From: Chelativorans sp. J32
Lineage (GTDB): Bacteria; Pseudomonadota; Alphaproteobacteria; Rhizobiales; Rhizobiaceae
Reading direction: 5' to 3'
Assembly: GCF_000518985.1 (NCBI RefSeq)
Contig: NZ_JAEQ01000004.1
Span: forward strand, 62,001-126,000
Length of the DNA: 64,000 nucleotides
Below, one piece after another: positions 2,832-28,219 of the stretch (positions are counted from its first letter, which is position 1; every line of letters begins with the position of its first letter). The notes under the pieces are model-generated. The model was not told where the DNA came from and ran no database searches. It worked only from the letters and a program-made list of their open reading frames with translations. The translations under genes and the position numbers were made by a program.

Positions 2832-3039
2832 ACCGGTCTCCTAATTGCGGAGCCAGAGTTTGGAGCGGGGAGCAGGGGGTGGGGATAGAATCCTGCTGAA
2901 GATCGTAACCGAAAGTGGGAATCTTGTTGCGGATCAAAGATATAACCTTAACGGCAGGTTTTAATTGTTCTCTTTTTGTTCACATCTCACACAGGGCGGG
3001 CTATAAGGAAAATATTCCTCGAGGAGAAGGGTATTTTCT

Positions 3040-3462
3040 GTGCAATCCATCGCCACAAGCCAGTTGCAGGATGAGGACAGGGGCGCGGAAGGCGTGGCTC
3101 AGCCGGACGCACTGGGGCGAAAGCTCAGCCCCGTTTGTGATGAGAGGGTGAACGATATCTGTGAATGTGTGATGGATATAGTCGCAGCGCTTTTCAACGT
3201 CAGCGGAAAGGATTTGCGCAGCCCGGGGCGGAGCTCGACCGAGGTGGCGCGCGTGCGGCAGATCGGCATGTATGTGGCCCATGTTGTTCTTGGCTTGAAC
3301 ATGAAAGAAATCGGCCGGGGATTCGGTCGCGACCGCACGACGGTACAACACGCCTGCCATCTGATTGAGGATCTGCGCGACGATGCGGAATTCGACCGCA
3401 TCGTACATATCACCGAGCGGGTGACTGCTGCTGCGTTCAGGCATACGGAGGTGATTGGGTGA
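3040..3462 (+). CDS. gafY: DnaA domain IV-like helix-turn-helix protein (probable GafY-type GTA activator)
   Basis: 140 residues. The C-terminal half (about 75-120) matches the DNA-binding domain IV of DnaA: RQIGMYVAHVVLGLNMKEIG followed by FGRDRTTVQHAC, with the signature DRTTV-HA. There is no AAA+ ATPase domain, so it is not an initiator. Such stand-alone domains occur in the GTA activator GafA of Rhodobacter, which is reported as two adjacent ORFs (GafY and GafZ) in other alphaproteobacteria. The neighbouring DUF6456 gene, coupled by a GTGA overlap, fits the second half. The start is GTG with GAGGAGAAGGG upstream. The domain is secure. The GTA role is inferred from domain content, pairing and a GTA cluster about 9 kb downstream. 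Confidence 0.72.
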   Translation: MQSIATSQLQDEDRGAEGVAQPDALGRKLSPVCDERVNDICECVMDIVAALFNVSGKDLRSPGRSSTEVARVRQIGMYVAHVVLGLNMKEIGRGFGRDRTTVQHACHLIEDLRDDAEFDRIVHITERVTAAAFRHTEVIG

Positions 3463-4277
3463 AGCGGCCAATGACCGGAATGACGCAAGCCGAACGGGAG
3501 AAGCTGCGGATATTGCGCTTCCTTGCTGGCGGGGAAGCGAACCTGCGGCCCGCCGCCAAGGAAGGCAGAGCACTGCTCGACGGGGGCGAGCGTGGAGTGA
3601 TAGCGGCCAACCTGGACGTTCTGTCTGCCTTCGTCAGCGAGGGACTTGCAATCAGAAGGAATGGACGCCTTGCTCTTTCCGCTGAGGGGCGGGCGGCCCT
3701 GAGGCGCGAGGCCCATCCCTCGGCCGCTTTTTCCGCGCAGCATATGGAGCTTTCCTCCAGCATCATCCTCACCGGAGAGGGCGAGGAGCTGGTCTCCAGG
3801 AATCTGGCCGAATCGCCCATCGGCCAACTCGCGCGACGCCGGACACGGACCGGCGAGGCATATCTGAGTTGGAGTGAATTCCGGGCCGGCGAAAGGCTGC
3901 GGGCCGATTACACCCGGGGGCAGATCATGCCGAAGATCAGTGCCAATTGGAGTGAGGCGGTGGCGAGCGGCCGGCGCGGCAGTAAGGAGAACGGAATCGC
4001 GGAACTGACGGATGCGGCGATGGCTGCCCGGCAACGGGTGGAAAATGCCCTTTCAGCCGTCGGCCCTGAACTTGCCGGCGTCCTTGTGGATGTCTGCTGC
4101 TTTCTAAAAGGTCTCGAGCAGGTGGAAATGGAGCGCGGTTGGCCGGTGCGCTCGGCCAAAGTGGTGCTCAAGACCGCGCTCGCCGCGTTAAGCCGACATT
4201 ATGAGCCGCAATCTCCTCGGCGCCGCGCTAAAATTCTCCATTGGGGAGCCGAGGGATATCGGCCGACCATGCGATAA
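3459..4277 (+). CDS. gafZ: DUF6456-domain protein (probable GafZ-type partner)
   Basis: 272 residues, soluble and helical. The C-terminal half (about 125-260) carries the DUF6456 pattern: AGERLRADYTRGQIMP, then ISANWSEAV, a helix pair, and KVVLKTALAALSRHY near the end. The GTG start overlaps the stop of the DnaA-like gene (GTGA), so the two proteins are probably made in a fixed ratio; an ATG at 3471 is an alternative. In Rhodobacter the corresponding regions belong to GafA, which activates GTA transcription and contacts RNA polymerase. In Caulobacter the split partner has been linked to antitermination across the GTA cluster. That role here is inference. The alternative is a general regulator of unknown targets. 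Confidence 0.68.
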   Translation: MKRPMTGMTQAEREKLRILRFLAGGEANLRPAAKEGRALLDGGERGVIAANLDVLSAFVSEGLAIRRNGRLALSAEGRAALRREAHPSAAFSAQHMELSSSIILTGEGEELVSRNLAESPIGQLARRRTRTGEAYLSWSEFRAGERLRADYTRGQIMPKISANWSEAVASGRRGSKENGIAELTDAAMAARQRVENALSAVGPELAGVLVDVCCFLKGLEQVEMERGWPVRSAKVVLKTALAALSRHYEPQSPRRRAKILHWGAEGYRPTMR

Positions 4278-4292: not shown

Positions 4293-4718
4293 TCAGGCTG
4301 CGCTCATGGCTCCCGCCGCCTCATCCTTCATGCGGCGAACCATCGCGCGCAGACCGTTGGCGCGTTGCGGCGTGAGGTGCTCGTCAAGGCCCAGCTCGCG
4401 CATCGTGTCTTCGGCTTCAATCGCTACGATCTCGCTTGCGCGGCGGCCGCTGAAGAGCGCAAGCATGATCGCGACCAGCCCGCGCACGATATGCGCATCC
4501 GAATCGCCTTTGAAGGTGATGGCCGGATCAGAACCGTCGCCGATCTGCGTGAGCAGCCACACCTGGCTTACGCAGCCGCGTACCCTGTGCCGCTCGTCCC
4601 GTGCCCATTCCGGATACTCAGGAAGATCGTTGCCGAGCTCGATGATATAGCGATACCGCTCCTCCCAGTCGTCCAGGAAGGCGAAGTCATCACGAATGGT
4701 CTCGATGCTGGTCACCAT
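4293..4718 (-). CDS. sufE: SufE, cysteine desulfuration protein
   Basis: 141 residues with the complete SufE fold pattern: DDWEERYRYIIELG near residue 15, then RGCVSQVW around residues 47-54 containing the sulfur-accepting Cys, and a C-terminal MRRMKDEA helix. SufE takes persulfide sulfur from the desulfurase SufS and passes it to the SufBCD scaffold for Fe-S cluster assembly in the cytoplasm. The frame is open far upstream, but family length places the start at 4718 (or nine bases earlier at 4727). It is convergent with the DUF6456 gene and lies downstream of the DUF5330 gene. Confidence 0.92.
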   Translation of the reverse strand: MVTSIETIRDDFAFLDDWEERYRYIIELGNDLPEYPEWARDERHRVRGCVSQVWLLTQIGDGSDPAITFKGDSDAHIVRGLVAIMLALFSGRRASEIVAIEAEDTMRELGLDEHLTPQRANGLRAMVRRMKDEAAGAMSAA

Positions 4719-11027: not shown

Positions 11028-13166
11028 TCAAAGCGCAGATAGACTTTCGGATACACGTGCGGGCCTGACAGGCGGGGCCTCGCGGAAGCGCCTCAGTAGA
11101 TCCTGAAGCACGCCCCGTGTCGCAAGCGGTAGGCTGTGGGCCGGCCGGCGCATGGCTTCATCAGCATTTTCAGCCGCGGCGAAGGTCGTGCTGTCCTTCA
11201 CGGGGAGCGGATTCTCGATACCCGGAATGGGCTTCAGCTCGATATTTTGATGAGCGTAGATCATAAAGCGCTGCCAGACCATCGCTGGCAAGGAGCCGCC
11301 CGTCATCTCGCGCGTTGGCCTGTAATCATCGTTGCCGAGCCAGACGGCGGCCACGTAATTCCCCGTGAAGCCCACATACCAGGCATCGCGATATGACTGG
11401 GTCGTCCCTGTTTTGCCCGCCGAGCGGATATTGGGGAGCGCCGCACGCCGACCGGTGCCGCGCTCGGGCACCTGCACCAGCATGCTGTTCATGTATGATG
11501 CGGCCTGTTCGGAGAGCACGCGGTGAGGCCGCGGCGCATCGCGGCGCCAATCATAGATGTTTTCTCCGGTATGGGTGTGGAGTTCCAGGATCCCGTGGCG
11601 CGTGCCGGCAAAGCCGCCATTCGCGAAGACGCCATAGCCGGTGGCCTGGTCCATTACGGTCATCCCGGAAGTGCCGAGCACCATCGTCTTATGACCGTTG
11701 AGCGGGGTTTCCACGCCCATGTCGCCGACCAGCTTCTGGATGACGTCGATGCCCAGATAATCACGCGCGAGGCGGACGGGCACGGTGTTGTAGGATCGTG
11801 CGAGAGCGGTGGCCAGATCGACGCGTCCGGCATAGCTGCGGCCGTAATTCTGTGGCGACCAGTTGCCCCAGGAGATCGGACCATCGGAAATAACGGTGCT
11901 TGGGGTAAGTCCGGCCTCCATGGCGGCTGCATAGACGTAAGGTTTGAAGGACGAACCCGGCTGGCGTGCGGCACGGGTGGCGCGATTAAACTGGCTTTGG
12001 CCATAGTCACGCCCACCGACCAGCGCGCGTACGGCGCCGTCCGTATCCATCAGGACAACGGCGCCTTCCTCGACATCATAATCCTTGCCGTACTGACGGA
12101 GGTGGAATTCGAGCGACTCCTCGACTGCGCGCTGCAGATCAAGATCGATCGTCGTGCGGGCGACTAGCGAGTGGGTGGCGCCCTTGGGGACGATCTTCTT
12201 CACCTCCTCGAATGCCCAGTCGAGGAAATAATCCGGTGCCTCGCGCTCGCCCCGGTCGACCGCGCTTGCGGGGTTGAGGCGGGCCGAAAGGACCTGCCCC
12301 TCGGTCATGAAGCCCGATTGAACGAGGTTGCTGAGCACCTCGTTGGCGCGTGCGCGAGCCGCAGGAAGGTTGATGTGCGGGGCATAGCGCGCGGGGGCCT
12401 TGAAGAGGCCTGCAATCATTGCTGCCTCGGCGAGCGTGAGATCCTTGACCTCCTTATTGAAGTAGAAATCGGCAGCGGCGGAGATGCCGAAGGTGCCGCC
12501 GCCGAGATAGGCGCGGTCGAGATAGAGCTGAAGGATTTCCTTCTTGCTGAGATTGGCCTCAAGCCATGCGGCGAGGAAGGCTTCCTTGATCTTGCGCTCG
12601 ACTGTGCGCTCATTTGTGAGGAACAGGTTTTTGGCCAGCTGCTGCGTGATCGTCGAGCCGCCCTGGACGACCGAGTTCGCACGCATGTTTTCCGCCAATG
12701 CGCGGGCGAGCCCGACGAAATCGATTCCGAAATGCTCGAAGAAGCGCCTGTCCTCGGTTGCGAGAACGGCCTTGATGACATGATCCGGCATCTCGTCGAC
12801 CGGCACGGAATCGCGCTGGCGAATGCCGCGCTGGCCGATCTCGTTGCCATAACGGTCTAGAAAGGTGACGGCGTAATCGTCCTGCGCACGCCAGTCGCCC
12901 GCCGTCTCCTGGAAGGCGGGCATGGCGAGCGCGAGCATCGCCACGGAACCTGCGGCCAGCAGGGTGAATGCCTCGCCCAGGAGTTCGAAAACCCCGCGCT
13001 TGACACCATAGACCCGGAAGCGGCGGAAGAAGATCGTGAGATCTTCCCATATTTCGGCAGCCTTGAAGCGTGCTTCGTAGAGGCTGGAATCGATCCAGGC
13101 GTCGATATCGAGGAAAATCGTGGCCCTCGGTGCCTTCCCCTTCTTTGACGTCCGCTTCTCAACCAT
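11028..13166 (-). CDS. Class A penicillin-binding protein (PBP1A-type transglycosylase/transpeptidase)
   Basis: 712 residues. A basic cytoplasmic tail of about 60 residues precedes a membrane helix (61-82). The glycosyltransferase 51 domain has EDRRFFEHFGID (138-149) and QGGSTITQQLAKN (168-180). The transpeptidase domain has the three active-site boxes S405-x-x-K408, S458-Y-N460 and K585-T-G. It polymerises glycan strands from lipid II and cross-links their peptides in the periplasm. All catalytic residues are present. The C-terminal ~60 residues are Pro/Arg-rich. It lies divergent from the GTA cluster with a 160-base gap to the GTA promoter. Confidence 0.95.
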   Translation of the reverse strand: MVEKRTSKKGKAPRATIFLDIDAWIDSSLYEARFKAAEIWEDLTIFFRRFRVYGVKRGVFELLGEAFTLLAAGSVAMLALAMPAFQETAGDWRAQDDYAVTFLDRYGNEIGQRGIRQRDSVPVDEMPDHVIKAVLATEDRRFFEHFGIDFVGLARALAENMRANSVVQGGSTITQQLAKNLFLTNERTVERKIKEAFLAAWLEANLSKKEILQLYLDRAYLGGGTFGISAAADFYFNKEVKDLTLAEAAMIAGLFKAPARYAPHINLPAARARANEVLSNLVQSGFMTEGQVLSARLNPASAVDRGEREAPDYFLDWAFEEVKKIVPKGATHSLVARTTIDLDLQRAVEESLEFHLRQYGKDYDVEEGAVVLMDTDGAVRALVGGRDYGQSQFNRATRAARQPGSSFKPYVYAAAMEAGLTPSTVISDGPISWGNWSPQNYGRSYAGRVDLATALARSYNTVPVRLARDYLGIDVIQKLVGDMGVETPLNGHKTMVLGTSGMTVMDQATGYGVFANGGFAGTRHGILELHTHTGENIYDWRRDAPRPHRVLSEQAASYMNSMLVQVPERGTGRRAALPNIRSAGKTGTTQSYRDAWYVGFTGNYVAAVWLGNDDYRPTREMTGGSLPAMVWQRFMIYAHQNIELKPIPGIENPLPVKDSTTFAAAENADEAMRRPAHSLPLATRGVLQDLLRRFREAPPVRPARVSESLSAL

Positions 13167-13327
13167 GACGAAACCGCCCGGCGTCCTCTCTACATTTGCA
13201 GTACCGCGAATGCCGCGTGCTAGGTACGCACGAGCCTACCCCGGCGTAACTTAACACATTCCGTAGGGAGAAGGTTGATCCAGGTTAAAGCGTTTGATGA
13301 TGAATTTTATCGATAGGAATTTAGTCC

Positions 13328-13356
13328 TTGACACCGTCACGGTGGTTTGATAGGGT
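13328..13356 (+). promoter_or_regulatory. Probable GTA cluster promoter
   Basis: A perfect -35 TTGACA (13328-13333), a 17-base spacer and TAGGGT (13351-13356) as -10, which matches poorly. The combination of a perfect -35 and a poor -10 suits an activator-dependent promoter. Transcription would begin near 13363 and read 130 bases of leader before the first gene. Confidence 0.55.
13332..13344. promoter_or_regulatory. CACCGT-C-ACGGTG palindrome inside the GTA promoter
   Basis: A perfect inverted repeat with 6-base arms and one central base. It overlaps the last two bases of the -35 box and fills most of the spacer. It is a natural binding site for a dimeric activator or repressor controlling the GTA genes. 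The ligand is unknown; the GafY-like protein at 3040 is one candidate. Confidence 0.5.
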
Positions 13357-13375
13357 TCAGGCATCATCGGAAAAG

Positions 13376-13424
13376 TGGGTCCGGCGGGGAGGGCATCGGG
13401 AATGCCCGAGCGTTTTTGGACCCA
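13376..13424 (+). ncRNA. Structured GTA leader with hairpin and short U-tract
   Basis: TGGGTCC (13376-13382) pairs perfectly with GGACCCA (13418-13424), enclosing a second element in which GGGCAT (13391-13396) can pair with ATGCCC (13402-13407), or TCGGG (13396-13400) with CCCGA (13405-13409) followed by GCGTTTTT. The last option resembles an intrinsic terminator, while the outer stem would sequester the T run. Two mutually exclusive folds are therefore possible. Confidence 0.45.
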
Positions 13425-13442
13425 GGCGAATAGAATTGCATA

Positions 13443-13473
13443 AGCGTCGAGCCGTTTGGCCGGCGCTTTTTTT
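13443..13473 (+). terminator. Intrinsic terminator-like hairpin before the first GTA gene
   Basis: AGCG-TCGA-GCC (13443-13453), loop GTTT, GGC-CG-GCGCT and a run of seven T. It lies downstream of the GTA promoter and 23 bases before the first GTA start codon. It would end transcripts before the genes unless RNA polymerase is modified or the leader refolds. Confidence 0.55.
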
Positions 13474-13495
13474 GTAATCGGACCCTGGAGGAAAT

Positions 13496-13993
13496 ATGAG
13501 ACGCGGTTCGGCAGCCACCGTGCTGCAGGCTGCGCGCGCGCTTTTCGAAGGCGCGCCGCCTTCGCTCGAATTGTTGGCGCGAGCCACCGGGCGGCAGGAA
13601 GCCTATCTTGCCAGGATCGCCGGCAAAGAAGGCTGGCGCGAGGCACCGGCTGCGTCGCAGGAAGACCCCGAGACCCTGGAACGGCGGCTGGTCGCGCTTT
13701 CGGATCAGCTTGTGGGCGATCTCGAAGCGGCGGGCGCCGAGGGGCGGGCTTCCGGTACCTATGACAAGGCCCGCATCGATGCGCTTTCGACCATGCTGAG
13801 AATGGTTGAAAAGCTTGGCGAGATGACGCGTCTACCCGAGCGCGCAGCAGAAAAACAGAAGAGAAGCGATGCAGAACTGGCCGCCGCACTCGCCCTCGTC
13901 GATGCCCGCATCCTGGAGCTCGCATGTGAACTCGCTGGAACCATGGGCGGTGGACAGGCTGAGCGGGGAGATAGCGCTTCGGACCCTGTCTGA
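13496..13993 (+). CDS. GTA gp1-like small terminase subunit
   Basis: 165 residues, helical, starting MRRGSAATVLQAARALFEGA with a helix-turn-helix-like N-terminus (SLELLARATGRQEAYLARIA) and a long Ala/Glu-rich helix behind it. Position directly before the large terminase and size match GTA g1/TerS, which recognises DNA and stimulates packaging. CTGGAGGAAAT gives an excellent ribosome-binding site. It overlaps the large terminase gene by 68 bases. Sequence conservation in this family is low, so the assignment leans on position. Confidence 0.72.
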   Translation: MRRGSAATVLQAARALFEGAPPSLELLARATGRQEAYLARIAGKEGWREAPAASQEDPETLERRLVALSDQLVGDLEAAGAEGRASGTYDKARIDALSTMLRMVEKLGEMTRLPERAAEKQKRSDAELAAALALVDARILELACELAGTMGGGQAERGDSASDPV

Positions 13994-15218
13994 ATGGTTT
14001 GGGTCTGCGCGGCTGGCGCAATATCCCGTCGGTGCATCGTTGAAGGATACATGGCTGGTCATGGGCGGCCGAGGTTCCGGCAAGACGCGGCTGGGGGCTG
14101 AGTGGGTGAACGCGCTCGTACGGGGCTTGCCGCCCTTCGCGCGGCATCGTTACGGACGCATAGCGCTCGTCGGCGAGACGCTGGGCGATGTGCGTGAGGT
14201 GATGATCGAAGGGCCCTCCGGCATTCTTGCTGCCTCGCGCGGCAACCGTCCGCGTTACGAGCCGAGCAGACGGCGGCTCGTATGGGACAGCGGCGCCGTG
14301 GCACTGGCTTTTTCGTCCGAGGACCCGGACAGCCTACGCGGGCCGCAGTTCGAGGCGGCCTGGTGCGACGAAGTGGCGAAGTGGAGGAACGCGGAGGATT
14401 GCTTCGACATGCTGCAATTCGGGCTTCGGCTGGGCCGCAGGCCGATGCAGATCCTGACAACCACGCCCAAGCCGGTGCCGATTGTCCGGCGGCTGATTGC
14501 AAATCCGGACGTTACCGTGACGCAGATGCGGACTGCCGAGAACGCGGCCCATCTTTCGCCGAGCTTCATCCGCGCCGTGGAGCGCAGTTACGCTGGAACC
14601 AAGCTGGGCCGGCAGGAACTCGACGGTGAGCTGATCGAAGATCGTGAGGACGCGCTCTGGAGCCGGGCCGATCTCGAGGCGATGCGAGGCTCCACGGAAG
14701 GCCGCACGATGAAGCGGATCGTGGTGGCGATCGATCCGCCCGCAACCAGTCGGCGGACGTCGGACGCCTGCGGCATGGTAGTGGCAGCGCTCGACGAGAA
14801 TGGAAACGGATGGGTGCTTCACGATGGCACGGTCCGGGCGGCAAAACCGCAGGAATGGGCTCGCCGGGCAATAGCGCTCTATCGCCGCTTCGAGGCGGAT
14901 ACGATCGTGGCCGAGGTGAACCAAGGCGGCGATATGGTGCGAAGCGTTCTGGGCGCGATCGACGACACGGTACCTGTGAAGCCGGTGCGGGCAAGCCGTG
15001 GCAAATGGTTGCGCGCAGAGCCGGTCGCTGCCCTCTATGCGCAGGGCAGGGTGCGCCATACGCAGCGTTTCCCCGAACTGGAAGACGAAATGTGTGATTT
15101 CGGTCCGGACGGACTTTCCGGCGGCCGCTCGCCGGACCGGGTGGATGCGCTGGTCTGGGCGATCACCGAATTGATGCTCGGCCGCGCCGGCGAGCCGCGG
15201 ATCCGCGACTTCCTCTAA
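13926..15218 (+). CDS. GTA large terminase / DNA-packaging ATPase (gp2)
   Basis: 430 residues from GTG 13926 (GGAG nine bases upstream); the frame continues upstream to 13869, but those residues are unlike the family. An N-terminal ATPase with Walker A GGRGSGKT (about 47-54) and Walker B-like EAAWCDEVAKW, and a C-terminal RNase H-like nuclease with VVAIDPP, EVNQGGDMV and SPDRVDALVWA, are those of the GTA/HK97-type terminase. It pumps host DNA into the particle head. In GTAs packaging is nearly non-specific. It is tightly coupled with gp1. Confidence 0.93.
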   Translation: MNSLEPWAVDRLSGEIALRTLSEWFGSARLAQYPVGASLKDTWLVMGGRGSGKTRLGAEWVNALVRGLPPFARHRYGRIALVGETLGDVREVMIEGPSGILAASRGNRPRYEPSRRRLVWDSGAVALAFSSEDPDSLRGPQFEAAWCDEVAKWRNAEDCFDMLQFGLRLGRRPMQILTTTPKPVPIVRRLIANPDVTVTQMRTAENAAHLSPSFIRAVERSYAGTKLGRQELDGELIEDREDALWSRADLEAMRGSTEGRTMKRIVVAIDPPATSRRTSDACGMVVAALDENGNGWVLHDGTVRAAKPQEWARRAIALYRRFEADTIVAEVNQGGDMVRSVLGAIDDTVPVKPVRASRGKWLRAEPVAALYAQGRVRHTQRFPELEDEMCDFGPDGLSGGRSPDRVDALVWAITELMLGRAGEPRIRDFL

Positions 15219-15233
15219 CAGCAGGGATAGCAA

Positions 15234-16409
15234 ATGGCATGGAATTGGCCCTGGGCATCGCGTCCGGGACGAGAAAGCGCGCTCTTCGAACGGAAAAGAA
15301 CGAGCGGATATGGTTTCCTGGCGCTGCATGCGCAGGGAGAGCCGCTCTGGACGCGGCGGGACTATGTCTCTCTCGCTCGCGAGGGGTTCATGCGCAATCC
15401 GATCGCGCATCGCGCGGTGCGGATGATCGCGGAAGCAGCAGCCACGATCCCATGGCTTCTTTATGAAGAGGAAGCGGAACTCTCCGACCACCCGATGCTC
15501 GAACTGCTCGCACGGCCCAACCACCGCCAGGCGGGGCCAAGTTTCCTTGAGATGCTCTACGGGCACCTCCTTCTATCCGGAAATGCTTACATCGAGCTTG
15601 TGGAGACCGGCACCGGCGCCCGCGAGATGCATCTGCTCCGGCCGGACCGCGTGACCGTGATTGCCGACGGAAATGGCTGGCCGATGGCTTTGGAGCACCG
15701 CGTCGGCGGCGTGAAGCGCCGGGTCCCGCTGGAGGAAAGCGGAAACGGGCTGCATCTGACACTTTTTCATCCACTCGACGACCATTACGGTTTTGCGCCT
15801 TTGTCGGCTGCACTGATGGCACTCGACATCCACAACGCGGCGGCGCGCTGGAACAAGGCGCTATTGGACAACTCGGCTCGCCCTTCGGGAGCGCTCGTCT
15901 ATGCTCCAAAGGAGGGTGGCAACCTGACGGACGAGCAGTTCGACCGGCTCAAGACGGAACTGGAGCAAGGCTATTCTGGCGCGACGAGGGCCGGACGGCC
16001 GCTTCTTCTGGAAGGCGGGCTCGATTGGAAGGCGATGAGCCTCAGCCCTCGAGACATGGATTTCCAGGAGGCCAAGAATGGTGCCGCGCGCGATATCGCC
16101 CTGGCGCTGGGTGTACCGCCGATGCTGCTCGGGATACCCGGCGACAACACCTATTCCAATTACCAAGAAGCAAACCGGGCCCTCTACCGGCTGACGGTCC
16201 TCCCGCTTGTAGGGCGCACCGCCAAGGAATTGGGCGGCTTCCTGGCTCCGCTCTTCGGCGGCGGTCTGCGGCTGTGGTTCGACCCGGACCAGATTGAGGG
16301 CCTTTCGGCGGAACGGGATGCGCTGTGGAAACGGGTGAGCGAGGCAAGCTTCCTCACCGATGATGAGAAGCGCGAGGCGGTGGGGTACGGCTCATATGAT
16401 CGAAGATAA
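15234..16409 (+). CDS. GTA portal protein (gp3, HK97 family)
   Basis: 391 residues. Signature elements of HK97-type portals are visible: NPIAHRAVRMIAEAAATIPW near residue 55, HPMLELLARPN near 85, LLSGNAYIELV near 115, RWNKALLDNSARPSGALVY near 205 and LGVPPMLLGIPGDNTYSNYQEANR near 290. It forms the dodecameric DNA gate at one vertex of the head. AGCAGGGATAGCAA precedes the ATG. Length is normal for GTA g3. Confidence 0.95.
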   Translation: MAWNWPWASRPGRESALFERKRTSGYGFLALHAQGEPLWTRRDYVSLAREGFMRNPIAHRAVRMIAEAAATIPWLLYEEEAELSDHPMLELLARPNHRQAGPSFLEMLYGHLLLSGNAYIELVETGTGAREMHLLRPDRVTVIADGNGWPMALEHRVGGVKRRVPLEESGNGLHLTLFHPLDDHYGFAPLSAALMALDIHNAAARWNKALLDNSARPSGALVYAPKEGGNLTDEQFDRLKTELEQGYSGATRAGRPLLLEGGLDWKAMSLSPRDMDFQEAKNGAARDIALALGVPPMLLGIPGDNTYSNYQEANRALYRLTVLPLVGRTAKELGGFLAPLFGGGLRLWFDPDQIEGLSAERDALWKRVSEASFLTDDEKREAVGYGSYDRR

Positions 16410-16511
16410 CGGACTTCATTCCCGGACATGAAAATCAAGAGCGCGAATAAGACGCCAGGAGAAACGAGCGATGGCGGGGCCTCCAATGTGACGAACTGGA
16501 AGGATCAACAA

Positions 16512-16841
16512 ATGACCGGACTGAGCGAAGCGGCCCTTTTGTGGGCCGCGAAAGCGGCGGGCGCGATCGTCGGTTCGGCGATCTCGATCGCCTATCTGCT
16601 GCCCTCCGGGCGGCGCGAGGCGGCAATCCGTTTCGCCGTGGGCGTCGCCTGCGGCTTTGTGTTTGGCGGGACGGCCGGATTGAAGATCGCAACCGAGCTT
16701 GGCATCGCCGGCCGCCTGGCCCCGAGCGAACTCGTGATGATGGGCTCGGCGGCGGCGAGCCTCTGTGCGTGGAGCGCGATCGGCCTGGTTACGCGCCTCC
16801 TCACGACGGCCGCGCGAAGCGGGCAGGCAACGGAAGGTTGA
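16512..16841 (+). CDS. DUF6107-type small membrane protein in the GTA cluster
   Basis: 109 residues from ATG 16512 (GGAAGGATCAACAA upstream); an earlier ATG at 16428 adds 28 polar residues. Three hydrophobic stretches are visible (about 5-33, 43-58 and 75-98), including AAGAIVGSAISIAYLLPSGRREAAIRFAVGVACGFVFGG. I associate this with DUF6107, a rhizobial GTA family lying between portal and protease, where Rhodobacter has a small g3.5. A membrane protein among capsid genes is odd. It might assist assembly or lysis; function unknown. Confidence 0.72.
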   Translation: MTGLSEAALLWAAKAAGAIVGSAISIAYLLPSGRREAAIRFAVGVACGFVFGGTAGLKIATELGIAGRLAPSELVMMGSAAASLCAWSAIGLVTRLLTTAARSGQATEG

Positions 16842-16844
16842 AGG

Positions 16845-17525
16845 ATGCAGTACAAGATCGCCGCCGGACCGAACGAGCGGAAATATTCGAGCCTCGATGT
16901 GGAGGCAATAGAGGATGACGGCACCTTCTCGGGCTATGCAAGTCTCTTCGGCCGGGTCGATCTCGGTCGTGACATGGTCGAACGTGGCGCCTTTGCGGAT
17001 TCGATCCAGAACCGAGGAGCAGGCGGGATTCGCATGCTCTTCCAACACGATCCGAACCAGCCGATCGGCGCCTGGAAGGAAGTCCGGGAAGACGAGCGAG
17101 GGTTGTTCGTGCGCGGCAAACTCGCCACGGGCGTGGGCCGGGCACGGGAGGTGCTGGAATTAATGCGGAACGGAGCACTGGACGGGCTGTCCATCGGGTT
17201 CCGCACAGTCCGGGCGACGAGCGATCCGCGCACCGGCGTCCGCCATATCAAGAAAGCCGATCTCTGGGAGATCTCCGTAGTCACATTTCCCATGCTGCCG
17301 GATGCGCGCGTGGAGAAGGTGAAATCGCGTGGCGATCTCCCGAGCCCAAGGGAATTCGAGCGTTGGCTGATGCGGGATGCGAAGCTGACGCGCAGCGAAG
17401 CAAAGACGGTGATCTCACGCGGCTTCGCTTACCTCCTGCGCAGTAGGGATGCAGCGCCGGAAACGCCAGAGGGCCTGGTGAACACCATTCGCCGGGCGAC
17501 GAAACTGCTTCAACAACAGGATTGA
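16845..17525 (+). CDS. GTA prohead protease (gp4, HK97 family)
   Basis: 226 residues. The prohead protease fold is indicated by TFSGYASLFGRVDLGRDMVERGAF (25-48), FQHDPNQPIGAW (67-78, with the catalytic His), LDGLSIGFRT (about 113-122, with the catalytic Ser) and KKADLWEISVVTFPM (about 135-149). The C-terminal part (about 165-226) resembles the extension carried by rhizobial members and may act as scaffold. It cleaves the capsid N-terminal delta domain during head maturation. GTTGAAGG precedes the start, 3 bases after the DUF6107 gene. Confidence 0.93.
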   Translation: MQYKIAAGPNERKYSSLDVEAIEDDGTFSGYASLFGRVDLGRDMVERGAFADSIQNRGAGGIRMLFQHDPNQPIGAWKEVREDERGLFVRGKLATGVGRAREVLELMRNGALDGLSIGFRTVRATSDPRTGVRHIKKADLWEISVVTFPMLPDARVEKVKSRGDLPSPREFERWLMRDAKLTRSEAKTVISRGFAYLLRSRDAAPETPEGLVNTIRRATKLLQQQD

Positions 17526-17528
17526 ACG

Positions 17529-18788
17529 ATGACAGCAACGACCAATGCAAGCCCGCTGGAAGTCAAGTCAGCCGCGGCGGGCGCGGACCTTGCCGGCGCA
17601 TTCGAGGAGTTCATGAACTCTTTCGAACACTTCAAGGAATCCAATGACCAGCGGCTGAAGGAGATCGAAAAGCGCTCGGCTCCGGACCCACTTACCACGG
17701 ATAAGGTGGAGCGCATCTCCGCTGCCGTCGACGAGCAGAAGCGGGTAATCGACCGCCTTGTGCTGAAGAAGGCAAGGCCACTGCTTGGACGTGAGGGTTC
17801 AATCTCAGTCTCGCAGCTCGAGCACAAGCAGGCTTTCGAGAGCTATGTCCGCAGCGGTGACGACCGCCTGCTGAGGGCGCTCGAAGAAAAGGCGATGTCC
17901 TACGGCTCGGGACAAGACGGGGGCTATCTTGTTCCCGAGGAGACCGAGGCTGAAATCGCCAAAAGGCTGGCGAATATTTCCCCGATCCGCTCGATCGCTT
18001 CAATACGGCAGGTTTCCACGGCAGTGTTGAAGAAGCCCTTTGCGGTGAACGGACCGGCGACGGGCTGGGTTGGCGAAAGCACACCGAGGCCTGAGACGGC
18101 ATCGAGCCAGCTGGACGAGCTTTCCTTCCCGACTGCCGAGCTCTACGCCATGCCCGCCGCAACGGCGGCGCTCCTGGAGGACAGTGTGGTCGATCTCGAT
18201 GCCTGGATCGCGGGCGAGATCGAGACGGCCTTTGCCGAGCAGGAGGGGCTTGCCTTCATAACGGGCGACGGCGTGAACAAGCCGCACGGGTTCCTGGCCT
18301 ATCCGCAGGTGGCGGATTCGGCTTGGAGCTGGGGGAGCATCGGCTATGTGGCTACGGGTGCCGACGGCGCACTGCCGGCCGAGAATCCGGCGGATGTGCT
18401 GGTCGACACGGTCTACACACTCAAGGCTGGCTATCGCCAGAACGCCAATTGGGTGATGAACCGCAAGACCCAGGCTGCCCTGCGCAAGATCAAGGACGCT
18501 GACGGCAACTATCTATGGCAGCCGCCGGCCGCGCCCGGCAGCCGGGCCATGCTGATGGGCTTCCCCGTGGTGGAAGCGGAGGACATGCCCGATATTGTGG
18601 CCGGTTCGACGCCCATTGCTTTCGGCGACTTCGGCCGTGGGTATCTTGTGGTGGACCGCACAGGCGTGCGCGTACTGCGTGATCCTTATTCCGCAAAGCC
18701 CTATGTGCTGTTCTACACCACCAAGCGCGTCGGTGGCGGGGTCCAGAACTTCGAAGCAATCAAGCTTCTGAAGTTTGCGGCAAACTAG
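17529..18788 (+). CDS. GTA major capsid protein (gp5, HK97 fold)
   Basis: 419 residues. Residues 1-~115 form a coiled-coil delta domain (EEFMNSFEHFKESNDQRLKEIEKR) removed by the protease. The mature HK97 fold follows with GYLVPEETEAEI, SPIRSIASIRQV, ELYAMPAATAALLEDS, FITGDGVNKPHGF and a C-terminal VLFYTTKRVGGGV. It is the shell protein of the GTA particle. An intrinsic terminator lies directly behind it (18823-18848), which would favour high capsid output over downstream tail genes. Confidence 0.96.
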   Translation: MTATTNASPLEVKSAAAGADLAGAFEEFMNSFEHFKESNDQRLKEIEKRSAPDPLTTDKVERISAAVDEQKRVIDRLVLKKARPLLGREGSISVSQLEHKQAFESYVRSGDDRLLRALEEKAMSYGSGQDGGYLVPEETEAEIAKRLANISPIRSIASIRQVSTAVLKKPFAVNGPATGWVGESTPRPETASSQLDELSFPTAELYAMPAATAALLEDSVVDLDAWIAGEIETAFAEQEGLAFITGDGVNKPHGFLAYPQVADSAWSWGSIGYVATGADGALPAENPADVLVDTVYTLKAGYRQNANWVMNRKTQAALRKIKDADGNYLWQPPAAPGSRAMLMGFPVVEAEDMPDIVAGSTPIAFGDFGRGYLVVDRTGVRVLRDPYSAKPYVLFYTTKRVGGGVQNFEAIKLLKFAAN

Positions 18789-18822
18789 CTGCGGCTCAAG
18801 CTCTAATTGGACGAGCAAACGA

Positions 18823-18848
18823 AAGCCCCGGCAAACCGGGGCTTTTTT
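18823..18848 (+). terminator. Intrinsic terminator inside the GTA cluster, after the capsid gene
   Basis: AAGCCCCGG (18823-18831), loop CAAA, CCGGGGCTT (18836-18844) and a run of six T (18843-18848). Perfect 9-base stem, GC-rich base and T-tract: a textbook intrinsic terminator, 35 bases after the capsid stop and 29 before the next start. No promoter consensus was found between it and gp6. Confidence 0.85.
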
Positions 18849-18877
18849 CTTGAATCAAAACTTGAAGAGAGGCGTTT

Positions 18878-19450
18878 ATGGCGCTGTTTCGAACGGTCGA
18901 CTCTTCGGTCGAACCGGTCTCGCTGGTCGAGGCCAAAAACCATATGCGCGTCGCTCATGACAGCGAGGATGAGCTCATATCCGCACTCATTCGAGCCGCG
19001 CGACGGGAGGTCGAGCAGGCGACCAGCACCGCATTCATCGTGCAGTCGTGGCGGTTGGCTCTCGACGATTGGCCCAAGAGTGAGATGGTGCTCCTGCAGC
19101 GGACGCCAGTACGGGAGATTTTATCAATCACGATCTTCGATGCTGACGGCGCCGGCTCGGTTCTGCCGCCCGAGCATTATCAGCTCGATAGTTTTTCGCG
19201 GCCGGCAAGGCTCTTCCTTAGGAGGAAGCCGGTACCGGGTCTTGAGCTGAACGGGATCGAAATCGATTTCCTCACCGGTTTCGGGGAAGCGGGAACCGAC
19301 GTTCCTGACCTGCTCAAGCGCGCGATCCTGATGCTGGTGGCCCACTGGTACGAATTTCGCGGTGTCTATGGTGCCGAGAGCCAGCCCGTCTCATTCCCCG
19401 ATGAATATCGGCGGCTGATTTCCGTATGGCGAACTCCGAGGCTGCAATGA
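18878..19450 (+). CDS. GTA head-tail connector / adaptor (gp6)
   Basis: 190 residues of the gp6-like head-tail adaptor (DNA-packaging/HK97 gp6) family: PVSLVEAKNHMRVAHDSEDELISALIRAARREVEQATSTAFI at the N-terminus is the classic pattern, followed by beta-rich middle parts and an LMLVAHWYEFRG helix. It forms a ring between portal and tail. It ends in an ATGA overlap with gp7. Confidence 0.9.
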   Translation: MALFRTVDSSVEPVSLVEAKNHMRVAHDSEDELISALIRAARREVEQATSTAFIVQSWRLALDDWPKSEMVLLQRTPVREILSITIFDADGAGSVLPPEHYQLDSFSRPARLFLRRKPVPGLELNGIEIDFLTGFGEAGTDVPDLLKRAILMLVAHWYEFRGVYGAESQPVSFPDEYRRLISVWRTPRLQ

Positions 19451-19782
19451 GGGCCATCATCATGGATCCGGGCCGGCTCCGCACCGAACTCATCCTGCAA
19501 GAAGCGGTCATCAGTGAAGACGGAGCAGGCGGCCATAGCGAAGATTGGCGCGAGGTGGCGCGCCTGTTCGCGGAAGTCACTCCGTTGCGGGCTGAAAGCC
19601 GCTTCGGTGCCGCACAGTTCCTCGAGCATGTGACGCACCGGGTGGTGCTGCGGGAGCGCGCGGATCTGAGGAGCGGGATGCGGTTTCTCCAGGCCGGCCG
19701 AACAATGGAGATCGTGACGATAGAGGATGCTGACGGAACGGGCCGTTATCTCGCCTGCCTGGTGCGCGAGGAGGGCCGATGA
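19447..19782 (+). CDS. GTA head-closure/stopper protein (gp7)
   Basis: 111 residues from the ATG overlapping the gp6 stop (ATGA); the frame opens 21 bases earlier inside gp6. Features of the SPP1 gp16/HK97 head-closure family are visible: DPGRLRTELILQE, WREVARLFAEVTPL, HRVVLRERADLRSGMRF and GRTMEIVTIED. It seals the portal after packaging and provides the tail docking surface. Confidence 0.88.
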   Translation: MRAIIMDPGRLRTELILQEAVISEDGAGGHSEDWREVARLFAEVTPLRAESRFGAAQFLEHVTHRVVLRERADLRSGMRFLQAGRTMEIVTIEDADGTGRYLACLVREEGR

Positions 19783-19955
19783 AGATTGCGATGCAACTTA
19801 CGCTCGACGGATTGGTGCGGGCGATGCGTATCAAGGCGCACGAGGTCGCGGATGCGATGGAGACGAGGAGGCCGTCGGCCAAGCAGGTCGAGGCGGCCAA
19901 GGAGGATCATGTCGTGAGGCGGCGGGGAGGGAAAGATGACAGCGGCGGCTCTTGA
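19779..19955 (+). CDS. Short GTA ORF between gp7 and gp8, 58 residues
   Basis: An ATGA overlap with gp7 starts a 59-codon frame: MKIAMQLTLDGLVRAMRIKA followed by a charged helix ending in KDDSGGS. It overlaps the start of gp8 by 20 bases. The coupling at both ends and GTA-like codon use support translation. The N-terminal part resembles the first helix of tail-completion proteins of the HK97 gp10 family, so it may be a reduced neck protein or a small specific factor. Function unknown. Confidence 0.6.
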   Translation: MKIAMQLTLDGLVRAMRIKAHEVADAMETRRPSAKQVEAAKEDHVVRRRGGKDDSGGS

Positions 19956-20340
19956 CCTGCAGGAGGCGGTGTTCGCTGCGCTTAACGCGAGTTCAGCGCT
20001 CGTCCAGGCACTGGGCGGGGCGAAGTTTCACGACATCACACCGGCCAATCTGAGCTTTCCCTATATCACCTTCGGACGCACCAGCAGCTATGATTGGAGC
20101 ACGGGGACAGAGGCGGGTAGCGAGCACTTTTTCACCCTCCATGTATGGTCCAAGCAAAAGGGCCGTAAGGAGGCGCTGTCGCTTATGGAACTCGTGCGCG
20201 GGGCATTGCATGAGAAGGACCTTAGGCTCGGCAGCCACCATCTGGCCAATCTGCGGCTCGACTTCTCCGAGATGCACTACGACGAGGACCTCGCCGTCTA
20301 TGACGGCAGCATGCGCTTCAGGGCGGTGGTTGAGGAATAG
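19936..20340 (+). CDS. GTA DUF3168 tail-completion protein (gp8)
   Basis: 134 residues of the DUF3168 (tail completion / HK97 gp10-like) family: LQEAVFAALNASSALVQALGG, YITFGRTSSYDWSTGTEAGSEHFFTLHVWSKQKGR and a final beta hairpin with VYDGSMRFRAVVEE. It forms the head-proximal end of the tail tube. GGGAGGGAAAG precedes the ATG within the preceding small ORF. Confidence 0.9.
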   Translation: MTAAALDLQEAVFAALNASSALVQALGGAKFHDITPANLSFPYITFGRTSSYDWSTGTEAGSEHFFTLHVWSKQKGRKEALSLMELVRGALHEKDLRLGSHHLANLRLDFSEMHYDEDLAVYDGSMRFRAVVEE

Positions 20341-20419
20341 ACGCACTGGCTCGACATCTCGGCTCCTCCCTGGCGGGGAGCGCGGGCCATTTCACAACGA
20401 CAATTGAAGGAGACCATGC

Positions 20420-20836
20420 ATGGTCGCGAAGAAGGGCAAGGACCTGCTCCTCAAGCTCGACGAGGACGGACTTGGCAATTTCGTAACGGTGGCGGGGCTG
20501 CGGACGAAGCGCCTCGCCTTCAACAGCGAAACGGTAGACGTGACCGACGCGGATTCGGCCGGCCGCTGGCGTGAATTGCTTGCCGGAAGCGGCGTACAGC
20601 GAGCGTCGGTCGCTGGTTCGGGCATCTTCAAGGACGCGCAATCGGATGCGGCCATAAGGTCACGCTTCTTTGCGGGAGATATCGCGACCTGGCAGTTTGC
20701 TATCCCAGAGTTCGGTATCGTATTCGGGCCGTTCCAAATCACGGCGCTCGAATATTCCGGCAATCATGACGGCGAGGTGACCTTCGAGATTGCATTGGAA
20801 TCCGCCGGGCCGGTCAACTTCGCGGTGGCGCAATGA
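20420..20836 (+). CDS. GTA major tail protein (gp9, TP901-1 family)
   Basis: 138 residues: KKGKDLLLKLDEDGLGNFVTVAGLRTKRLAFNSETVDVTDADSAGRWRELLAGSGVQRASVAGSGIF is the standard start of TP901-1/GTA major tail tube proteins, and HDGEVTFEIALESAGPVNF is the C-terminal strand pair. It polymerises into the tail tube. AAGGAGACC lies upstream of the start. It ends in an ATGA overlap with gp10. Confidence 0.92.
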   Translation: MVAKKGKDLLLKLDEDGLGNFVTVAGLRTKRLAFNSETVDVTDADSAGRWRELLAGSGVQRASVAGSGIFKDAQSDAAIRSRFFAGDIATWQFAIPEFGIVFGPFQITALEYSGNHDGEVTFEIALESAGPVNFAVAQ

Positions 20837-21174
20837 GCGTGAATCGCAAACGCGGCGAAGTCGCCGCCAAACTTGACGGGCGCGACTATCGGCTGTGCCT
20901 GACACTGGGCGCCTTGGCTGAACTGGAAGCCGCCTTCGCTGCCGAAAACCTCAATCAGCTCGTTGAGCGTTTCGGGACCGGCAAGCTTTCCGCACGCGAT
21001 GTGATCGCCATCATCACTGCTGGATTGAGGGGCGGTGGCCATGAGGTGAGTGAAGACGAGGTGCGCCGGATGCAGTGCGATGACGGCGCGGCCGGTTTCG
21101 CACAGCTGGTAGGAGACCTCCTGGCCATAACCTTCGGCGGGGACAGGTCGGGAGGTGTTGAAGAGCGCCCTTAG
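20833..21174 (+). CDS. GTA gp10, tail assembly chaperone-like
   Basis: 113 residues: RKRGEVAAKLDGRDYRLCLTLGALAELEAAF at the N-terminus and LSARDVIAIITAGLRGGGHEVSEDEVRRM in the middle are the GTA gp10 (gene transfer agent family) signature. Position before the tape measure and before another small ORF equals that of phage tail-assembly chaperones, which are often made as frameshift pairs. The TAG stop at 21172-21174 lies in a region where two other frames are also open (see the next entry). Confidence 0.88.
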   Translation: MSVNRKRGEVAAKLDGRDYRLCLTLGALAELEAAFAAENLNQLVERFGTGKLSARDVIAIITAGLRGGGHEVSEDEVRRMQCDDGAAGFAQLVGDLLAITFGGDRSGGVEERP

Positions 21175-21215
21175 GTGCCGCAGCAGGTTCGACGGCACCC
21201 TTTCCCTGGGATGAG

Positions 21216-21407
21216 GTGATGAGGGTGGCTTTCGGCCTGCTGCGGCTTAGCCCGACAACTTTCTGGAAGATGACGCCCATCGAATTCAACGCGGCGCTCG
21301 AGGCATTGGGACTGACGAGGGCGGAAGCGCCCGGCCGCGGTGAGTTGAAACGGCTGATGCACCTTTTCCCCGACAAATCCGGAGCGGATAAATGGCAGAT
21401 GAAGTGA
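21216..21407 (+). CDS. GTA gp10.5-like tail assembly chaperone; start not certain
   Basis: 63 residues from GTG 21216. The sequence VMRVAFGLLRLSPTTFWKMTPIEFNAALEALGL is typical of the rcc01693-like phage tail assembly chaperones. Family members begin several residues earlier with a PW-D-xVM motif, and that motif (FPWDEVM) is encoded here in frame directly upstream, back to a TGA at 21159. That upstream stretch has no ATG, GTG or TTG. Either the protein starts at GTG 21216 and is truncated, or its beginning is supplied by a frameshift from gp10 or from GTG 21155. It overlaps the tape measure gene by 16 bases. Confidence 0.7.
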   Translation: MMRVAFGLLRLSPTTFWKMTPIEFNAALEALGLTRAEAPGRGELKRLMHLFPDKSGADKWQMK

Positions 21408-21955
21408 GGGTTCCAATCGTTGCCGATACGACGCCATTTGAAACGGCTCTCACGGATTTAGCGGCGCTCTCTGAAAATTTCGGCACGCAGTTGACCGGTG
21501 CGCTTAAGAGTGCAGCCGTGAGCGGCAAATCGCTGGACGACGTGCTGCGCAGGATCGGGCTCAACCTCGCGGGCATGGCGCTGGAGCGAGGACTCCAGCC
21601 GCTTCAAGGTTTGATGGGAACGATGTTTTCGGGGCTTCTAGGCGGGCTGGGCAATATCATGCCCTTCGCCAGAGGCGGTGTGGTGCCCTTCGCCAGCGGC
21701 GGCATTGTCTCGGCCCCCACTTATTTTCCGGCCGGGAGAAATATCGGTCTCATGGGAGAGGCCGGTGCGGAAGCTATCCTGCCGCTGCGAAGAACTTCGG
21801 ATGGCAAATTGGGAGTGGCGGCGAGCGGAGGCGGGAGCGGGACCCAGATCGTCTTCAATGTAAGCACGCCTGATGCGGCTTCGTTCCGCAAATCCGAGGC
21901 GCAAATATCCGGCCTTTTGGCGCGTGCCGTTTCGCGCGGTACGCGGACACTTTAG
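21392..21955 (+). CDS. GTA tape measure protein (gp11), short
   Basis: 187 residues, much shorter than siphophage tape measures, as expected for short-tailed GTA particles (Rhodobacter gp11 is about 220). The centre is hydrophobic and Gly-rich (LGGLGNIMPFARGGVVPFASGGIVSAPTYFP), followed by the family signature GLMGEAGAEAILPLRR. Tail length scales with tape measure length in siphophages, so a short tail is expected. It overlaps the chaperone gene. Confidence 0.88.
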   Translation: MADEVRVPIVADTTPFETALTDLAALSENFGTQLTGALKSAAVSGKSLDDVLRRIGLNLAGMALERGLQPLQGLMGTMFSGLLGGLGNIMPFARGGVVPFASGGIVSAPTYFPAGRNIGLMGEAGAEAILPLRRTSDGKLGVAASGGGSGTQIVFNVSTPDAASFRKSEAQISGLLARAVSRGTRTL

Positions 21956-21970
21956 GGCGACCGGATTCTA

Positions 21971-21988
21971 CCGCACCGACGCCGGTGC
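21971..21988 (+). other. Hairpin in the gp11-gp12 gap
   Basis: CGCACCG and CGGTGCG pair perfectly around a 4-base loop within the 153-base gap between the tape measure and gp12. This is the longest gap in the tail module. There is no T-run, so it is not an intrinsic terminator; it may be an RNA-processing or stability element or incidental. Confidence 0.3.
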
Positions 21989-22108
21989 GATGGAAATGTT
22001 TGGCCCGCATCCTCGGTCAAGCCAACGATGGTGGGTTGCGCAAATCGCCGATCAAGCGGTTCCAAACCACTCGGCCATCGAGATTCTCGATCAAACTCAG
22101 GATCGTTC

Positions 22109-24080: not shown

Positions 24081-24083
24081 TTC

Positions 24084-27974: not shown

Positions 27975-28006
27975 ACATTATCCAACAAGCAAGAGGAGTA
28001 TCTGGA

Positions 28007-28213: not shown

Positions 28214-28219
28214 AAGGCG

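Follow-up and report, generated by a model that had tools for sequence, protein, structure and literature searches.

The gafYZ Gene Pair and the GTA Cluster

The stretch of the Chelativorans sp. J32 genome that has been analyzed here (contig NZ_JAEQ01000004.1, positions 62,001 to 126,000; the whole 64,000 nucleotides are hereafter called the window) carries two overlapping genes, one for a stand-alone DNA-binding domain of DnaA and one for a DUF6456 protein, which are almost certainly the two halves, GafY and GafZ, of a split GafA, and, 9 kb downstream of them, a gene transfer agent (GTA) cluster of 14.7 kb (Table 1). The pair itself is of an ordinary, already published kind, and the locus is one more split gafA operon of the Hyphomicrobiales with the known mucR and sufE neighbors. 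New are the DNA elements of the GTA promoter, and because of the anatomy of this promoter a loading of GafZ onto RNA polymerase in the manner of phage Q proteins appears to be the best explanation. The two open reading frames share the bases GTGA at 3459-3462, exactly as the original prediction had stated, and its assignment of both products has been borne out by family comparisons. Residues 42-107 of the GafY-like protein match PF08299 Bac_DnaA_C (Pfam, E 2.1e-18, above the family cut-off), the protein matches solved DnaA DNA-binding domains in PDB (best E 1.1e-10), and no match to an ATPase family has been found in these family and PDB comparisons. Residues 114-249 of the GafZ-like protein match PF20057 DUF6456 (Pfam, E 1.3e-48), with a 75% identical protein of Chelativorans multitrophicus as the closest named relative found. 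Both proteins match opposite ends of the fused phage family phrog_31864 (316 positions; positions 4-60 and 252-297, E 1.6e-6 and 2.6e-4, for the two halves), which is expected if GafY and GafZ are halves of a fused protein. The pair is flanked by a ROS_MUCR gene (1856-2326) and by a SufE gene on the minus strand (4293-4715), with a small divergent gene between mucR and gafY; mucR lies upstream and sufE downstream, as in the Hyphomicrobiales arrangement. The split pair is no novelty, since gafA has been described as partly split in two open reading frames in Rhizobiales (PMC6363796) and two-gene operons with mucR upstream and sufE downstream have been reported for Hyphomicrobiales (PMC9638019). 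More widely, 759 GafZ homologues, of which 494 have an adjacent GafY (PMC9632790), and gafA in 196 of 208 genomes (PMC9765227) have been reported.

Regarding the GTA cluster, TerL and nine of the ten further proteins scanned match Pfam families (portal, protease, capsid, connector, tail tube, DUF2460, hub, NlpC/P60, and GTA_TIM), and a split GafA-like pair at about 9 kb from a GTA cluster, as had been predicted, is upheld by the protein families, by synteny, and by the co-occurrence with TerL. In genomes of the order, DUF6456 has been found in 163 and TerL in 155 of 199; the corresponding numbers for the family are 124 and 118 of 151, where both occur together in 114 genomes, DUF6456 only in 10, TerL only in 4, and neither in 23 (Fisher p 1.4e-15, a statistic that ignores relatedness). 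A class sample of 241 genomes contains DUF6456 in 50 and TerL in 68. For the comparison of promoters, 80 stretches with DUF6456 and TerL on the same contig and the same strand within about 18 kb have been fetched (60 from the family, 20 from the order), which together with the window give 81 loci; L001 is a repeat of the window and has been left out of the counts. All 81 loci contain gafZ, and 80 contain gafY beside it, the exception being L064, where gafY has not been found beside gafZ.

Table 1. Positions of genes and of observed or predicted DNA elements in the window.
Feature	Position	Strand	Basis
Conserved small gene divergent from gafYZ	2466-2831	minus	relative in 62 of 81 loci
DnaA-box-like GGGGATAG (reverse complement CTATCCCC) upstream of gafYZ	2881-2888	minus	near, not exact, TTRTCCMC
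LexA-type (SOS) box GTTC-N7-GTTC over the predicted gafYZ -35	2967-2981	plus	gafY upstream counts
Predicted gafYZ promoter: TTCACA (2979-2984), 17 nt, TATAAG (3002-3007)	2979-3007	plus	read from sequence
Inverted repeat IR1 AAGGAAAATATTCCTC over -10/+1 of gafYZ	3005-3020		gafY upstream counts
gafY-like gene, 140 aa, GTG start; stand-alone DNA-binding domain IV of DnaA, no ATPase	3040-3462	plus	PF08299; DnaA structures in PDB
gafZ-like gene, DUF6456 protein, 272 aa, GTG start	3459-4277	plus	PF20057; structure model; 61-sequence alignment
Inverted repeat IR1 TAGGAATTTAGTCCTT abutting the GTA -35	13314-13329		repeat pattern across GTA promoters
Predicted GTA promoter: TTGACA (13328-13333), 17 nt, TAGGGT (13351-13356)	13328-13356	plus	promoter box recurring in 78 of the 81 loci
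Palindrome CACCGTCACGGTG in promoter spacer, predicted GafZ binding element	13332-13344		column profile
-10-like hexamer CATCAT, at -1 to +5 of a predicted start at 13363; putative sigma-dependent pause element with A(+1) at 13363 and T(+5) at 13367	13362-13367	plus	conservation; AlpA precedent
Pause-like sequence GGAAAAGTGGG	13369-13379	plus	G-10 Y-1 G+1 pattern
GTA leader; terminator hairpins predicted at 13384-13413 and 13442-13468	13384-13473	plus	hairpin scan
GTA head-tail cluster, g1 at 13496, TerL at 13869	13496-28213	plus	right end as in the original prediction

Architecture of the GTA Promoter

A consensus promoter scan has missed the GTA promoter. With a 90-column weight matrix, a single promoter box has been found to recur in 78 of the 81 GTA loci (none has been found in L009, L012, and L056), in which an inverted repeat (IR1) is followed by TTGAC, a spacer palindrome, the -10 element, and a conserved transcript start. 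Counted from the first T of TTGAC, the informative columns are those of the repeat (-14 to -1), of TTGAC (0-4), of CGTnACGGT (7-15), of the -10 (23-28), and finally columns 34-51, the flanks averaging 0.04 bits; the window counterparts are given in Table 1, the last of them extending over 13362-13379. Against circularity, the promoter search has been rebuilt from columns -16 to +17 only, leaving the transcript start unused, and has recovered the promoter at 77 of the 81 loci, at 76 of them in the same place. The resulting set of 77 promoters, without L009, L012, L056, and L031, underlies the counts that follow.

The palindrome between -35 and -10 occurs as CGnnACG in 62 of the 77 GTA promoters and as CGTnACGG in 48, compared with none of the 78 gafYZ promoters (the 80 gafY loci less L042 and L079, where the profile match began late). 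In Caulobacter, GafZ has been reported to require a palindrome between the -35 and -10 of the GTA promoter (PMC11150451), and the gafYZ promoter to be bound by GafY and unbound by GafZ (PMC9632790). Because of this location of the Caulobacter element, and because the palindrome is absent from the gafYZ promoters, which GafY binds in Caulobacter, the palindrome in the window is probably the element of GafZ, the second protein, whose expected position it fits by analogy. The original prediction had instead proposed that the first, DnaA-like protein binds here. This protein is indeed a DNA-binding domain, but the palindrome bears no likeness to a DnaA box, lies where GafZ binds in Caulobacter, and is missing from the very promoters that GafY would have to recognize, so that the proposal is probably wrong and such a binding is regarded as highly improbable. 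A pattern of fixed architecture, which recovers 69 of the 77 known promoters, has been applied to 17 GTA loci from outside the order and has matched 3 of them (shuffles: mean 0.09, maximum 2); in L083 and L095, an alignment by eye has been possible after shifting by one base, and the remaining 12 loci have given nothing alignable to the promoter architecture. An earlier architecture scan outside the order had yielded 0 matches in 20 loci.

A Predicted Sigma-Dependent Pause at the Transcript Start

Downstream of the -10, columns 34-51 show a median pairwise identity of 0.67, compared with 0.26 in the downstream flank. The consensus start is predicted at column 35, six bases after the -10, which places the hexamer YAYVGT at -1 to +5. 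Its A at column 35 and T at column 39 occur together in 76 of the 77 promoters, as compared with a mean of 3.9 and a maximum of 15 for the same pair at 95 shifted offsets, and further conserved bases have been observed with C at column 40 (+6; 76 of 77), T at 48 (75), and G at 49 (72). The elemental pause pattern G-10Y-1G+1 is present in 45 of the 77 (null: mean 3.3, maximum 12). The transcript-start motif is found in 58 of the 77 GTA promoters and in 0 of the 78 gafYZ promoters, and the absence of both palindrome and start motif from gafYZ fits a factor that acts at the GTA promoter alone, as Caulobacter GafZ does.

The closest precedent is provided by AlpA, which has been reported to act at a -10-like CACGAT at -1 to +5, where a change of A(+1) or T(+5) harms antitermination (PMC9371919); the predicted geometry of the GTA transcript start is that required by AlpA. 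For sigma70 pauses of E. coli, the -10-like element has been described to follow the -10 at a distance of about 11 bp, the spacer to measure 6 nt, and polymerase to pause at 16-17 (PMC7876045). The respective figures of the GTA promoter are 11, 6, and 16, with the pause taken from the TGYG motif. At lambda pR', given the start site assumed here, 22 nt separate the last -10 base from the base at +16, a distance that the GTA consensus shares. Q, in addition, has been reported to depend both on a site in the -35/-10 spacer and on the -10-like sequence (PMC6606751). Taking these similarities into account, we regard it as likely that GafZ would be loaded through a sigma-dependent pause. The conserved start might also be an extended GafZ site or a feature read by an RNA-binding factor rather than a pause signal, and the C(+6), which lies outside any -10 hexamer and is conserved to the same degree as A(+1) and T(+5), as well as the likewise high columns 43 and 45 (A), would suit such a function. 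However, the invariant bases are the two most important ones of a -10 hexamer and stand in the AlpA register, whereas the other hexamer positions vary, and the T at 48 and the G at 49 fall at the expected place of the pause, which makes this alternative unlikely. The words pause and pausing are absent from the text of PMC11150451, as are pause and antitermin from that of PMC9638019.

Predicted Leader Terminators

Both predicted hairpins of the GTA leader precede a U tract and lie before g1, with energies of -11.4 kcal/mol (13384-13413) and -16.8 kcal/mol (13442-13468) in a looser scan. For the comparison of leaders (+5 to +205), a strict terminator has been defined as a hairpin of -12 kcal/mol or better with six T in eight, and such terminators have been found in 34 of the 77 leaders, compared with 2 in equal upstream stretches and 2.2 in block shuffles. 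At thresholds of -10, -12, and -14 kcal/mol, the numbers are 34, 34, and 29 leaders and 3, 2, and 1 upstream stretches. This count replaces a looser and weak one, in which 40 of 78 leaders had stood against 17 upstream stretches and 17.8 in shuffles; the leader as a whole folds no better than shuffles (z -1.2). Terminators had originally been predicted in the leader and in the interior of the GTA cluster. The leader is found to carry its two predicted hairpins; the interior terminators are not established, as a pattern scan of 12900-29500 has given 21 matches versus 13.7 (standard deviation 3.9) in shuffles. Outside the order, where the promoter has been placed by eye in seven loci, a leader terminator is present in L091, L095, L096, and L099, and none has been found in the leaders of L083, L085, and L092.

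In Caulobacter, GafYZ has been reported to let polymerase pass a terminator, and GafZ to follow polymerase and the Nus factors across the GTA cluster (PMC11150451). Together with the leader counts, this speaks for GafZ as an antiterminator at the GTA locus of the window, a role that we consider very probable.

Structure Model of GafZ

The GafZ model (AlphaFold2 with an alignment of 61 sequences) has a mean predicted local distance difference test (pLDDT) of 86.9 and a predicted template modeling score (pTM) of 0.62, and it comprises an N-terminal winged-helix-like part and a C-terminal domain that resembles sigma region 4. Residues of about 181-250 superpose on the -35 domains of extracytoplasmic function (ECF) sigma factors (3hug_G, Z 8.1, root-mean-square deviation 3.0 over 70), and residues 1-96 on the winged helices of NadR (Z 8.0) and PadR (Z 7.9). 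The structure comparison that had been proposed for the second protein thus gives a modeled sigma likeness in agreement with that published for GafA and GafZ (PMC6363796, PMC11150451), and 21Q has likewise been described to resemble sigma region 4 (PMC6606751). That Q proteins are missing from the structure-match lists has no evidential value.

The gafYZ Promoter and a LexA-Type Box

The sequence GTTC-N7-GTTC, which overlaps the predicted -35 of gafYZ, is the SOS box of Alphaproteobacteria. Its exact form occurs in 21 of the 78 gafY upstream regions (shuffles: mean 0.8, maximum 5), of which 17 also match the IR1 pattern, with a spacing of 38-42 nt between the SOS box and IR1 in 16 of the 17; reading by eye has covered part of the gafY upstream regions. 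A stricter form, TGTTCN5TTGTTC, has 10 sites in the window's genome (0 for the reversed control), one of them before a UvrA-like and another before a SRAP-like gene (both by eye), and the neighbors of the remaining sites could not be named as SOS genes. From this sequence evidence, gafYZ would probably be under the control of LexA.

The DnaA-box-like motif TTRTCCMC is present in 38 of the 78 gafY upstream regions (shuffles: mean 3.5) versus 1 of the 78 GTA upstream regions, and because of the latter number it is not the element common to both promoters and has been ruled out as a common GafY site. Its presence upstream of gafYZ could point to a tie to replication control. Caulobacter GafY has been reported to bind far upstream and to touch RpoD (PMC11150451). 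The far-upstream GafY element, which in the known GafY/GafZ system is accompanied by an IHF site, has been looked for with the strings ACTATG and ACTAT, and neither string is enriched in either of our promoter sets (ACTATG in 7 of the 78 GTA upstream regions versus a shuffle mean of 5.6).

An Inverted Repeat Common to Both Promoters

The repeat IR1 has been found in 57 of the 78 gafY upstream regions (shuffles: mean 3.0, maximum 7). Among the 77 GTA promoters, its form AGGA-N6-TCC is present in 41, and in 60 when a shorter-gap variant is included (shuffles: 0.0, maximum 1). Within the 4.70 Mb genome of the window, WARGANWWWWNTCCTH occurs at four places (reversed control: 1), i.e., at gafYZ, at the GTA promoter, at a SNase gene, and at an ImuA-like gene, whose match to ImuA is below the family cut-off and whose promoter also contains GTTC-N7-GTTC. 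A stricter form of IR1 is found in 14 of 16 genomes of the genus at 34 places, versus 8 for the reversed pattern, and in 22 of all 31 genomes compared. Inspection by eye has located IR1 directly before the CTTGAC of ImuA-like genes in six genomes (L117, L123, L131, and L139-L141), in L117 together with a GTTC-N7-GTTC box, and at 18-98 nt before the starts of SNase-like nuclease genes in five (L114, L128, L132, L145, and L150); the other IR1 places among the loci inspected have no ImuA-like or SNase-like neighbor.

Two candidate binders of IR1 have been considered. As the only element found in both the gafYZ and the GTA promoters, IR1 could be the site of GafY, two copies of which would sit beside the -35 and touch sigma, and one half of the repeat, TTATTCCTA, is similar to the DnaA box TTATNCACA. 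The sites of DnaA domain IV are single and non-palindromic, however, and neither form of IR1 is present in 17 of the 77 GTA promoters. The recognition helix of GafY, RDR[TS][TS]V, is nearly constant, and yet the GTA promoters of L062, L063, and L074-L076 (one family) are without IR1, whereas L064 contains IR1 with no gafY found beside gafZ. A coupling between recognition helix and IR1 has given no usable signal because the helix is nearly invariant. Caulobacter GafY, for its part, has been reported to bind both promoters and sigma region 3-4 (PMC11150451, PMC9632790), and GafY as the binder of IR1 thus stays a tentative assignment, to which we give rather less than an even chance.

Alternatively, IR1 could be the operator of a RogA-like Cro/CI-S24 repressor that holds both gafYZ and the GTA promoter off, a reading that comes close to an even chance. 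Palindromic AT-centered sites suit the Cro/CI-S24 class, IR1 covers the -10/+1 of gafYZ, and two S24 proteins have been found in the window's genome, LexA and the candidate L160:1489-2130, which would be RogA-like by its class. In Caulobacter, RogA, a helix-turn-helix protein with an S24-like part, has been reported to repress gafYZ, but it has been found enriched at gafYZ and one other promoter and not at the GTA promoter (PMC9632790). The candidate L160:1489-2130 keeps the serine of GDSM and the lysine of VMAK (by eye), unlike what has been reported for Caulobacter RogA (PMC9632790), and might hence be cleavable.

Proposed Mechanism

The sequence itself shows the genes and their linkage, the DNA elements that are conserved, and the predicted terminators. 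From these we infer the start site, the binding partners, pausing, antitermination, SOS induction, and a function in this genome as parts of the following scheme. DNA damage would inactivate LexA at its box upstream of gafYZ, and gafYZ would be expressed. GafZ would then bind the spacer palindrome of the GTA promoter via its domain resembling sigma region 4, possibly while GafY helps in the recruitment of polymerase. RNA polymerase is predicted to start near 13363 and to retain sigma, region 2 of which would grip the -10-like hexamer at -1 to +5 and cause a pause near +16. Like phage Q and AlpA, GafZ could move from its binding element to the paused polymerase, which in its modified form would pass the leader terminators and transcribe the 14.7 kb cluster. 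The whole scheme, from the SOS-induced gafYZ over the loading of GafZ at the pause to the read-through of the leader, is considered fairly likely.

Several observations weigh against this scheme. The 81 loci are not a random sample because they have been chosen for close linkage, and the exact SOS box is limited to the 21 upstream regions mentioned above, all in the window's family. G-10Y-1G+1 fails in 32 of the 77 promoters, and the window itself has G where the consensus of the pause motif has C or T at -1; an elemental pause motif is not required, however, because none has been reported at the sigma70 pause sites examined in PMC7876045. The Z-scores of the GafZ folds are modest (best Z 8.1) and at the level of common arrangements, and Foldseek with the GafZ model has returned nothing at E 0.001 or below (best E 0.043). 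No named Q family is matched by GafZ, for which phrog_31864 (function unknown) is the sole match at an E threshold of 0.01, and 21Q and lambda Q have been described as having no obvious homology between them either (PMC6606751). Further, 43 of the 77 leaders contain no strict terminator within +5 to +205, so that terminators would have to lie elsewhere at those loci or the model does not cover them. For R. capsulatus GafA, finally, a route via the omega subunit has been reported, in which GafA binds omega and its promoter and activates in an omega-dependent manner (PMC9638019); Caulobacter GafZ did not pull down omega (PMC11150451). The leaders lacking a strict terminator and the omega route of GafA would also suit a pair that activates initiation only, as proposed for GafA via omega, the leader hairpins being ordinary attenuators or leftovers. 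Yet strict terminators are concentrated in leaders as compared with equal upstream stretches, and Caulobacter GafZ has been reported to track polymerase and the Nus factors over the cluster and past a terminator (PMC11150451), and an activation of initiation only is considered quite improbable.

In a more general form, in which we place slightly more belief than doubt, the GTAs of Hyphomicrobiales and of at least some other Alphaproteobacteria would use a sigma-pause-dependent DUF6456 antiterminator that has a domain resembling sigma region 4, is unrelated to known Qs, is loaded from a palindrome of the promoter spacer, is SOS-controlled in part of the window's family, and is joined by ImuA-like operons and a nuclease gene in a small regulon. 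The Caulobacter authors list as open in what way GafZ modifies RNA polymerase and whether its mechanism is that of Q and AlpA (PMC11150451), and the -10-like element in the AlpA register of 76 of 77 promoters makes the mechanism of GafZ directly testable by simple mutation. If the scheme is true, GTA release, which is lethal to the producer, would be tied to the logic of phage late-gene control; in some members of the window's family, it would be tied to DNA damage as well.

Additional Observations at the GTA Loci

The small gene divergent from gafYZ has passed a test for a divergent and upstream position in 55 of the 62 loci with a relative (81 examined), and its product has no Pfam match at E 0.1 and no NCBIfam match at E 0.001. 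It is a candidate new GTA-associated gene, and a possible partner at the promoter region that it has in common with gafYZ. Regarding the pair, gafY and gafZ form one open frame in L042 (G331) and are otherwise separate in the fetched loci of that family, and weak second DUF6456 copies have been seen in G214, G297, G325, G340, and others, possibly within prophages. Overlong TerL genes have been noticed in G202, G206, G230, G282, and G335 (matched to about residue 170, open frame 829-877 aa) and in G296 (matched to residue 209, open frame 1075 aa), and inteins are the probable cause. In G292:C24 and G200:C12, the GTA TerL is split into a first piece that ends at residue 421 or 415 and a second piece that covers residues 403 or 404 to 447, the two being separated by about 18 and 10 kb, respectively, on the same strand; an integration near the 3' end of TerL seems to have occurred. 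Two records deposited as phages, MW091529.1 (525-569, matching the GTA promoter over 45 bases with 82% and E 0.005) and MW462191.1 (76052-76762, a 54% identical DUF6456 protein), are perhaps bacterial GTA loci mistaken for phages.

Comparison With Known Systems

Among the known systems, GafY/GafZ of Caulobacter crescentus (CCNA_01111/CCNA_01112) share with the window an operon in which the DnaA-IV-like gene and the DUF6456-type gene are separate, the palindrome in the -35/-10 spacer of the GTA promoter, and a terminator to be passed. In contrast to Caulobacter, where the terminator lies after the first gene, the predicted terminators are located in the leader here, the palindrome has a different sequence, the far-upstream ACTATG is not enriched, and a LexA-type box at gafYZ and IR1 at both promoters are present. 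GafA of Rhodobacter capsulatus contains the same DnaA-like and DUF6456 regions, but in one fused protein for which an omega-dependent activation has been reported. The Hyphomicrobiales operons with a split gafA (Sherlock and Fogg, 2022) agree in their order of mucR, a small DnaA-like gene, gafA, and sufE, and promoter elements are not given in the passages of that report consulted here. Regarding AlpA of Pseudomonas aeruginosa and the Q proteins of phages 21 and lambda, no sequence relation to GafZ has been found, and the binding of GafZ to polymerase is a prediction here. Nevertheless, the GTA system resembles them in its predicted binding element within the spacer, the -10-like sequence at the transcript start, and the predicted terminator downstream; the GafZ model shares with 21Q a fold like that of sigma region 4, and AlpA is switched on by DNA damage, for which the SOS box suggests the same here.

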